From an uncultured bacterium (GTDB lineage: Bacteria > UBP6 > UBA1177): a stretch of DNA of 64,000 bases. The stretch is from assembly GCA_905233945.1 (NCBI GenBank), contig CAJOFY010000005.1, positions 78,698-142,697 of the forward strand, read 5' to 3'. This document shows positions 22,742-24,672 of the stretch, piece after piece. The notes below the pieces were generated by a model. That model ran no database searches, was not told the DNA's origin, and saw nothing but the letters and a program-made list of their open reading frames with translations. A program made the translations under genes and the position numbers. How positions within the stretch are numbered: the stretch's first letter is position 1; each line of letters begins with the position of its first letter.

Positions 22742-23596
22742 ATGCCAAATCCAAAAAACATATCTATTTTTGAAGACACCGTGAACCTTGTGGAGAACAC
22801 AAAACGCCTGCGTGAAGCAGTCGCCGCAAGTCTGAAATCGCAAAAATTCATCGCGGAGAAGGATCCTGTGCCGGACGGAAGTCTTATAAAGCGCTTTGAA
22901 GAGCCTGCCAAAATCATCGTGAGCAAAAAACGCACATTCGAGGTAGCTTCTGCTTACGCAGGAAAGGGCGACAAGCTGTGCGTGCTCAACTTTGCTTCCG
23001 CATCGAATCCGGGAGGAGGAGTGGTGAACGGCTCCAGTGCACAGGAAGAGTCTTTGTGCCGGGTCTCCACACTTTATTTTACGCTTGATACAGACGAAAA
23101 CTGGAAGCGCTTTTACAAGCCGCACAGAATGAGCCGTGACCCGATACACAACGACGATATTCTTTACACGCCTGATATCGTTGTCTTCAAAACGGACTCT
23201 TCTGCTCCGGAGCGCATGCCGGAAAGCGGCTGGTTTAACTGCGACGTGATCACCTGCGCCGCGCCGAATCTGCGCGAAAATCCAATCAACCGCTACAATT
23301 CCGGCGACGGAAGAGAACGACTGCTGCTTTCCGACGATGAGCTTTCCCGCGTCCACAGAAAACGCGACCGTAGGATTTTTGATGTCGCCGTTCAGAATAA
23401 AGTCGATGTGCTTGTTTTGGGTGCATTCGGCTGCGGTGCCTTCAGAAACAGTCCGACCGTAGTCGCCGATGTTATGCTTTCGCTCGCAAAAGAGTATGAA
23501 CACGCCTTCAGGATGATCGAATTCGCGGTATACTGCCCGCCGTTCGATGACACGAATTACAGAATTTTCATGAAGCGGGTTCAGTTACTTGTCTGA
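22742..23596 (+). CDS. Bacterial-type poly(ADP-ribose) glycohydrolase fold protein (TIGR02452 family)
   Basis: Members of this macrodomain-like family remove or bind ADP-ribose. The signature lies at about residues 78-106: VLNFASASNPGGGVVNGSSA followed by QEESLCR. It combines the GGG loop with the QEE acid pair used by PARG enzymes. Downstream blocks (WFNCDVITCAAPNLRENP; VDVLVLGAFGCGAFRNSP) also match. Length of 284 is usual. ATG 22742 follows GGAGGAAAAAAG. A transposase-like gene on the same strand starts 38 bp after its stop, so the two are likely cotranscribed; ADP-ribose or NAD-related control of that partner is only a possibility. Confidence 0.85.
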   Translation: MPNPKNISIFEDTVNLVENTKRLREAVAASLKSQKFIAEKDPVPDGSLIKRFEEPAKIIVSKKRTFEVASAYAGKGDKLCVLNFASASNPGGGVVNGSSAQEESLCRVSTLYFTLDTDENWKRFYKPHRMSRDPIHNDDILYTPDIVVFKTDSSAPERMPESGWFNCDVITCAAPNLRENPINRYNSGDGRERLLLSDDELSRVHRKRDRRIFDVAVQNKVDVLVLGAFGCGAFRNSPTVVADVMLSLAKEYEHAFRMIEFAVYCPPFDDTNYRIFMKRVQLLV

Positions 23597-23634
23597 GAAT
23601 TTTATTCTCGTTTTGCTCAGGAGACAGCCGATTT

Positions 23635-24672
23635 ATGACAAACGAAAAATTTACATGGCTACAGCCCGGCGCATGGCGCAAACCGATTATTGTGCATGCA
23701 ACAATGGTCGCAAAAGACCGCAAGCCGCTTTTCGGCAAACTTGCTCACGACGGTCGTTGCGCTGTAGTGGAAAAATCTCCAATAGGCTGGATCCTCATAA
23801 AACAGCAGCAGCGGATGCTTGAGTTGTGTCCGGAAATAAAAATTTTGGCCGACAAAGTGATGCCGGATCACCACCACATGGTTTTGCAGGTAATGCGTTC
23901 CATGAGAAGAAGCATAAAAGAAGTCGTGCGCGGCTACATGCAGGGTTGCAAAGCCGAAGCTCTAAAGCTGGGATTCGACGGGAATATTTATGATGCACCG
24001 CCGTTTTACCGTGTTCTTTCGCACAAAGGACAGTTGAAAGCAATGATAGAATATGTTTATGCCAATGCAGAACGTGCCTGGCAACGCAGACAGAATCCCG
24101 ATCTGTTCCGTATGCACCGTCAGACAGAAATCTGCGGCCTGACATTCACATCGTTAGGCAACCATTTTCTGCTGAATTGGCCCGATCGTCAATTGGTGGA
24201 AATGTCAAGAAGCAGCACAGACGAAGAAATCGGGCAGCGTTTACAATATGTATTGACTGCGGCACAGAACGGCGCGGTTACTTACACAGCGGCAATCAGC
24301 AAAGGTGAGCAGATGATTGCCCGCACATTGCGGGAGCATGGTATGCCGCTGGTTGTTCTGCTAAGCAATGGTTTTCCTATCGAAGGTTCTCCGCATGAAA
24401 AGTATTACAAGCCGGGAGCTCTCTATTTTGAAGCATGTTCAAAAGGCCAACTGTTGCTTTTGGAACCGACGCTGCAGACGATAACTTTGCCTGTGATTCA
24501 TTCTGCCGCAGAAAAAACGCTTCGGCAAAAGGCGGAAGAAAAAAATATTGCTTACAAGCCTGTTTCTATATCAACGCAACGTTACCGTTTCGTGGCATTG
24601 AATGAGATTGGAAAATTTATAATTGAAAACGGATCAAATCCGTCAGGAAAGACTGAACTGATTGTTTTATAG
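23635..24672 (+). CDS. HUH (Y1-type) transposase-like domain fused to a DprA/SMF-like Rossmann domain
   Basis: The first 165 residues resemble IS200/REP-associated tyrosine transposases: a start with basic IIVHATMVAKDRKPLF, the metal-binding histidine motif MPDHHHMVLQV (about 75-85), a helix with the candidate nucleophile Tyr (EVVRGYMQGCKAE, about 101) and IEYVYANAERAWQRRQNPDLF. The last 130 residues (GAVTYTAAISKGEQMIARTL ... GMPLVVLLSNGF ... KYYKPGALYFEACSKGQLLLLEP) look like a DprA/SMF nucleotide-binding fold. A free-standing REP transposase would end near residue 170. No terminal inverted repeats are seen beside the gene. It may be a domesticated DNA-processing enzyme. The HUH half is the firmer call. 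Confidence 0.7.
   Translation: MTNEKFTWLQPGAWRKPIIVHATMVAKDRKPLFGKLAHDGRCAVVEKSPIGWILIKQQQRMLELCPEIKILADKVMPDHHHMVLQVMRSMRRSIKEVVRGYMQGCKAEALKLGFDGNIYDAPPFYRVLSHKGQLKAMIEYVYANAERAWQRRQNPDLFRMHRQTEICGLTFTSLGNHFLLNWPDRQLVEMSRSSTDEEIGQRLQYVLTAAQNGAVTYTAAISKGEQMIARTLREHGMPLVVLLSNGFPIEGSPHEKYYKPGALYFEACSKGQLLLLEPTLQTITLPVIHSAAEKTLRQKAEEKNIAYKPVSISTQRYRFVALNEIGKFIIENGSNPSGKTELIVL

Follow-up and report, generated by a model that had tools for sequence, protein, structure and literature searches.

Our best reading of the gene described here is that it represents a new subclass of TnpA-REP, in which a nickase carries a ShosA/PsyrA-type DprA domain, and that it forms a REPtron-like cassette that came from rumen Bacteroidales. 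The gene lies in a window, by which we mean the whole stretch of 64,000 nucleotides of an uncultured bacterium that was analysed, and the features recognised there are listed in Table 1. A fusion of this kind together with flanking tagged hairpins is a combination that we have not found described in the literature, and PubMed Central, from which subscription papers are mostly absent, yielded no paper on an HUH, Y1 or RAYT protein fused to DprA. RAYT groups are reportedly the subject of a paper by Bertels and colleagues from 2017.

Table 1. Features of the fusion gene and of its proposed cassette, in positions of the window
Feature	Positions	Strand	Evidence
TnpA-REP-like HUH nuclease / DprA-like fusion protein, 345 aa	23635..24672	+	ORF, alignments, models
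Y1 HUH nuclease core, about residues 16-156 (H79, H81, Y140, N144)	23680..24102	+	fold match, invariance, profiles
DprA/ShosA-like domain, about residues 159-332	24109..24630	+	domain-alone model, fold matches, stand-alone relatives
Motif residues of the DprA-like domain: G175-N176, R192, I221-S222-xx-E225, K259-P260, N323			
Left REP-like element: guide GTTCAGTT, spacer, hairpin GAGAATTTTATTCTC	23579..23609	+	pattern match
Right REP-like element, inverted: guide GTTCAGTC, hairpin ACGGATTTGATCCGT	24629..24658	-	flank reading, scans
Proposed cassette, about 1080 bp, terminal inverted GTTCAGT...ACTGAAC	23579..24658	.	presence/absence versus G008 and G013

The fusion gene and its HUH nuclease half

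The open reading frame begins with ATG and comprises 345 codons. A search of the genome_contigs collection identified relatives encoded at 45 loci, of which 37, mostly in rumen Bacteroidales, are 66-77% identical to the window protein, four are 90% identical and four are more distant (41-51%). Purifying selection acts on both halves in all nine pairs that could be measured, with dN/dS values of 0.075-0.117 for the whole gene, 0.048-0.097 for the N half and 0.074-0.159 for the C half; a tenth pair was saturated. Therefore, the fused reading frame is not a chance arrangement. The family counts given below refer to two alignments: A1 contains 36 of the 54 listed sequences, the window copy counted, and A2 contains 35 rows, namely the window protein and 34 of 35 representatives (22-71% identical to it), with L064 excluded for an internal gap. 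The window's own genome also harbors a divergent second fusion copy, 35-38% identical (G000 contig C5:53130-54149; L002, L003, L181). This second copy is interrupted by an in-frame TAA, and open copies of the same type are present in five genomes of the window's genus.

According to the initial annotation, the N-terminal half has the two-histidine metal motif and the candidate tyrosine of REP-associated transposases, and this assignment holds. The HUH motif of the window protein reads D78-H79-x-H81, and H79, H81, Y140 and N144 are invariant in all 35 members of A2. Position 145 is a proline in 32 of these members and an alanine in the window protein, and the residue before the Y helix, as judged by eye in A2, is tyrosine or phenylalanine in the window protein and most members and tryptophan in some. 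Fold comparison aligned the modelled N half with E. coli TnpA-REP (4er8; Z 13.1, rmsd 5.3 over 133 residues), IS608 TnpA (2a6m; Z 12.6, rmsd 2.1 over 101) and ISDra2 TnpA (2xo6; Z 11.4, rmsd 2.4 over 103).

For the nuclease half, the profile searches proposed in the same annotation agreed with it for the family and not for the window protein. Pfam Y1_Tnp is matched by 33 of the 36 members of A1 at E <= 1 (29 of the 35 in A2 at E <= 10), whereas the window protein falls below the cut-off (E 0.099, 13.2 bits, cut-off 23) and has no DprA match. The NCBIfam model REP_Tyr_transpos is matched by all 36 members of A1 at E <= 1, with a best value of 1.4e-7, and the window protein reaches E 0.0066 and 16.3 bits against a cut-off of 80. 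Judged by its sequence, the window protein is a divergent relative outside the curated REP_Tyr_transpos and Y1_Tnp models. Because its direct Pfam score is weak, we base the claim of a fusion on the family as a whole, on the predicted structures and on the sequences that provide links.

Class 2 of the TnpA-Y1 family is marked by the signature Y---N(P) in the available parts of Quentin et al. (2018; PMC6006769), and the present gene fits this class by that signature and by its hairpin flanks. As far as those parts describe class 2 TnpA-REP/RAYT proteins, the shared traits are the DHxH HUH core, the Y---N(P) signature, low copy number, patchy spread and guide-plus-hairpin flanks in a REPtron-like layout, and the differences here are a large DprA-family C-terminal domain in a protein of about 340 aa, the guide GTYCMGTY in place of GTAG, and the concentration of the hairpins at the locus. 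Known TnpA-Y1 subclasses carry HTH or other C-terminal domains; among the subclasses in the same parts of the paper, none has a DprA domain, and no Bacteroidetes protein of about 340 aa with the Y---N(P) signature appears (PMC6006769). At three of our loci (L009, L154 and L063), short peptide units are repeated in frame between the HUH and Tyr motifs, and these repeats recall the repeat insertions of TnpA-Y1 subclass 2.4.

The DprA-like half and its stand-alone relatives

The C-terminal half had been described in the initial annotation as a DprA/SMF-like Rossmann domain, and both the predicted models and a chain of stand-alone relatives bear this out. Modelled alone from 35 sequences, the C half reached a pLDDT of 93.7 and a pTM of 0.88, and it matched ShosA with Z 11.1 (rmsd 3.0 over 132) and the DprA of three species with Z 7.8-9.8. 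The next fold matches (Z <= 5.3) include TRPM2, LOG-type and YpsA entries, which we take to be members of the wider SLOG superfamily. In the AlphaFold2 model of the whole protein (mean pLDDT 87.1, pTM 0.74), the C half matched ShosA (8zva) with Z 11.6 (rmsd 3.1 over 133) and H. pylori DprA with Z 10.0 (rmsd 3.2 over 128). Structure prediction, which had been proposed as a check, assigns a Rossmann-like DprA/SLOG fold to the C half and a Y1 HUH fold to the N half. Foldseek alone returned no match for the C half below E 1e-3, the best one (2.7e-3) being ShosA.

Direct comparisons of the fused form with DprA were negative or weak. None of the 35 fused members matches Pfam DNA_processg_A (PF02481) at E <= 10, and the C half of the window protein has no match in a family scan with Pfam, NCBIfam and PADLOC. 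The best hhalign comparison of the fused C half with 28 DprA sequences has an E of 0.0034 and a different register, and sequence searches of the PDB, whether with the fused C half or with one stand-alone relative, found no DprA. The connection is made by the stand-alone relatives. A survey with the C-half profile was positive in seven of 395 genomes, centre genome G107 included, and the six stand-alone proteins that it identified (E 4.8e-11 to 1.5e-6) come from other Bacteroidia genomes; their open frames have 153-201 codons, with a stop codon inside the matched stretch in one of them. All six match DNA_processg_A with E 1.3e-6 to 2.5e-5 and 24-28 bits, below the cut-off of 29.6, and the two tested against the PsyrA profile of PADLOC both match it (E 3.1e-15 and 7.1e-12). 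In hhalign, the fused and stand-alone profiles align with E 1.3e-11 and 97% probability, and the stand-alone profile aligns with DprA at E 2.1e-6. Moreover, the motifs GN..LL, SR, ISG or ISxxE, GxLL and N follow in the same order in the fused form, the stand-alone proteins and DprA. Because this chain leads from the fused form through the stand-alone proteins to DNA_processg_A, and because the motif order is shared, the C half is, on this sequence evidence, related to DprA and closest to the ShosA/PsyrA branch of antitoxin-type proteins.

With DprA/Smf (PF02481, TIGR00732), the C half has in common the fold, the motif order and stand-alone relatives that match the family, but the fused form lacks a direct sequence match, and ISxxE replaces SGxxxGxD. 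With ShosA and PsyrA (PDB 8zva; PADLOC PDLC03927), it shares the DprA Rossmann domain, this being the best structural match, and stand-alone relatives that match the PsyrA profile; those antitoxins, however, are separate proteins paired with a toxin, whereas the C half is joined to a nickase and has no conserved partner. An ordinary dprA is present besides the fusion in 29 of the 31 genomes searched, the window's own included. Residues G175, S222, E225, P260 and N323 are invariant in all 35 members of A2. The GSR-like arginine R192 is kept in 26 of the 35 fused members, and DNA binding as in DprA may therefore be lost.

At one locus (L224:1420-3371), a small stand-alone DprA/PsyrA-like gene lies directly 3′ of macro-domain and DarT genes (Macro, E 1.3e-23; DarT, E 4.7e-43), and another (L227:3-1962) has, by eye, a similar layout. 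The stand-alone gene is possibly the third gene of a DarTG locus in these two cases.

Guide-tagged hairpins and the cassette

The initial annotation held that no insertion ends flank the gene. This statement has to be withdrawn, as guide-tagged hairpins lie on both sides in inverted orientation (Table 1). The left element starts 56 bases 5′ of the ATG, and its pattern is matched by none of 100 shuffles. The right element has a spacer that is one base short and sits within the last codons of the reading frame, as the stop codon of the relatives is missing from the window copy. As single-stranded DNA, the left hairpin folds with -3.4 kcal/mol (z -2.57) and the right one with -4.8 kcal/mol (z -2.86), four of 200 shuffles being as good in each case; two Bacteroidales hairpins reach -8.6 and -9.3 kcal/mol, and none of 200 shuffles is as good.

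The same design, in which a guide GT[TC]C[CA]GT[CT]NNTT precedes a short perfect hairpin whose top is AT-TNY-AT, borders the majority of Bacteroidales homologues and recurs in the flanks of the 36 loci scanned, which include close relatives. These are the window and 35 of the 45 loci; L048, L051, L052, L057-L060 and L062-L064 were left out of the scans as truncated, divergent or gapped. A hairpin was found upstream of the gene at 28 of the 36 loci (+ orientation in 23), downstream at 25 (- orientation in 20) and on both sides at 21, mostly inverted; the scan found no upstream hairpin at eight loci and no downstream hairpin at 11. Within 500 bases of the gene there are 95 copies, compared with five in the other 346,787 bases of these loci, and a reversed-sequence control of the scan gave 16 matches versus 102. 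The distance from guide to loop, for which 12-23 was allowed, is 19-21 in all 84 distinct copies and exactly 20 in 69, and the outer stem positions, which were unused in the selection, pair in 80, 55 and 37 of the 84 copies.

Because the guide was derived from the same loci, a whole-genome search is the better test. In 80 genomes, the pattern occurs in 12 of the 13 with a close homologue versus four of the 67 others, 23 of the 32 matches are no more than 500 bases from the gene, and no match was obtained when the pattern was written backwards. Within the window's genus, the five genomes that carry the GTTC-type pattern are exactly those that have the close gene version; the pattern is absent from the other ten. 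Tagged hairpins that flank the gene as inverted pairs, as they do in the window, are shared with the REPtron. The strict pattern has 0-5 matches per genome, few of them away from the gene, unlike classical REPs, and the many dispersed copies per genome that are a REPtron trait were not found with it in the 80 genomes. Lone guide-hairpin copies away from the gene were seen at G000 C49:6673-6700 and at G102 C3:167609 and C6:106065; the two G102 copies are identical over the pattern, hinting at limited dispersal. No uniform hairpins were found around the more distant paralogues, and the flanks of L110, L117, L118, L170 and L171 contain other perfect hairpins, such as GCTGCAAC or GCGACG stems, which are possibly other hairpin types. 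The Bacteroidales guide GTYCCGTC contains CGTC near a short perfect palindrome, as do the CGTC-tagged REPs (Di Nocera et al., 2013; PMC3733652), but the spacing and the stem differ, and the window copies read CAGTC. The available parts of that paper report no transposase gene flanked by CGTC units, and the link is therefore a lead only.

The cassette is absent from the corresponding site in the related genomes G008 and G013, where the TIGR02452 gene is next to gcvPB and the matched stretches are about 95-120 bp apart; G007 has a similar site in shortened form. The intergenic sequences have diverged, so that the comparison yields no exact insertion footprint or end points. In the window, the gene upstream of the fusion (22742-23596) belongs to the PARG-like TIGR02452 family (E 4.3e-43), and its final codons and stop fall within the left hairpin element. 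An operon with this gene was rejected because the gene is present at the cassette-less site and absent beside the Bacteroidales homologues. Among the 46 loci, neither tnpB nor any other partner gene is conserved next to the fusion beyond close relatives.

In a quick tree without bootstraps (85 rows after duplicate loci were dropped), the window protein nests among Bacteroidales, with an SH-aLRT of 98 for a 12-row set. Some version of the fusion is present in ten of the 15 genomes of the window's genus and in none of 178 other genomes drawn as its wider relatives. Among genomes of the Bacteroidaceae type, the family of G107, 39 of 151 match at E <= 1e-10, often with several divergent copies, and of the 295 other genomes sampled phylum-wide around G099, 51 match, essentially with the nuclease half only. 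Absences in these large surveys are soft, since only some candidates were scored per genome. The initial annotation had raised conservation of the fusion across phyla; the counts place it instead in Bacteroidaceae-type genomes and in the window's genus, and entry into this genus by horizontal transfer fits them. A phage or plasmid origin was rejected, the window protein having no match in phage or plasmid records. One paralogue matched an unannotated phage record (53% coverage, 24% identity, E 2e-5), and one scan of viral_contigs gave no confirmed match. Because the hairpins are inverted around the gene and come and go with it, we regard the whole as a REPtron-like, possibly mobile cassette, which departs from the earlier suggestion that the fusion is an enzyme dedicated to ssDNA processing and not simply a transposon.

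Proposed mechanism and its alternatives

We consider it probable that the gene encodes a single-strand-specific TnpA-REP (RAYT) HUH endonuclease that recognises its own border hairpins and carries, as an extension, a ShosA/PsyrA-like domain of the DprA family. The data support both domains, intact catalytic residues, selection on both halves and linked hairpins, and they also support the presence and absence of the cassette and its transfer between lineages. According to the available parts of two papers, TnpA-REP recognises guide and hairpin strand-specifically (PMC8266576), and DprA binds ssDNA and interacts with RecA, its homologues being antitoxins in ShosTA and SyrTA (PMC9122126). From these precedents, hairpin nicking followed by the holding or handing over of the strand would be the most likely mechanism. 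One strand would be exposed as lagging-strand template or in a repair gap, and the HUH domain would bind the hairpin and guide on it. Tyr140 would then nick this strand and become 5′-linked, and the DprA-like domain would keep hold of the exposed strand, which it would either shield or hand on to RecA for repair or integration. Hairpin binding and cleavage by the HUH half are presumed by analogy with TnpA-REP. The DprA-like half may likewise bind ssDNA and have a link to RecA, and the cassette may be mobile at present; that this half holds or hands over the released strand is something we only infer.

In the main rival reading, which we regard as quite possible if short of even, the DprA-like half is a scaffold for folding, dimerisation or hairpin recognition, and the protein is a plain TnpA-REP that has no role in RecA or ssDNA loading. 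The C-terminal extensions of known TnpA-REPs vary and affect activity or recognition, as described in the available parts of two papers (PMC6006769; PMC8266576), and the incomplete retention of R192 agrees with a scaffold; the five invariant residues of the C half and the selection on it fit a functional pocket, but they fit a scaffold as well. A bolder version of the TnpA-REP reading, which we think unlikely, is a self-contained element whose polypeptide frees its own hairpin-bordered strand and delivers it to RecA through the built-in DprA domain. If this were true, single-strand transposition would be coupled to homologous recombination, and the CCGTC-type guide of the Bacteroidales copies could mark the element as a transposase type of its own, devoted to tagged palindromes that do not belong to the GTAG group.

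A part in defence or in a toxin-antitoxin system, with the HUH nuclease acting on invading ssDNA, seems improbable to us. It is suggested by ShosA as the top structural match of the C half, ShosA and PsyrA being the antitoxins of ShosTA and PsyrTA, and by the stand-alone relatives, which match PsyrA in PADLOC and one of which adjoins DarT and macro-domain genes. However, the PADLOC models match neither the window protein nor two fused paralogues, the neighbourhood is not conserved beyond close relatives, and the window protein is without match in phage and plasmid records. An ordinary, currently active insertion sequence of the IS200/IS605 type has equally little probability and was already disfavoured: the gene shares the HUH fold, the tyrosine and hairpins at both borders with IS608 and ISDra2 TnpA, and presence and absence at one site, but those TnpA proteins are short, have the signature Y---Q and lack a DprA domain, the selection here is host-gene-like, and a simple IS200 element was rejected on the class 2 Y---N signature, the divergent rather than near-identical paralogues within genomes and the mostly inverted hairpins.

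RAYT/TnpA-REP proteins are widespread domesticated nickases. In a TnpA-REP nickase of the kind proposed here, the DprA-family domain leads to the hypothesis that the recombination machinery takes over the nicked strand. The fusion subclass extends the range of guides beyond GTAG, and its whole cassette appears to have been transferred between lineages of gut bacteria.
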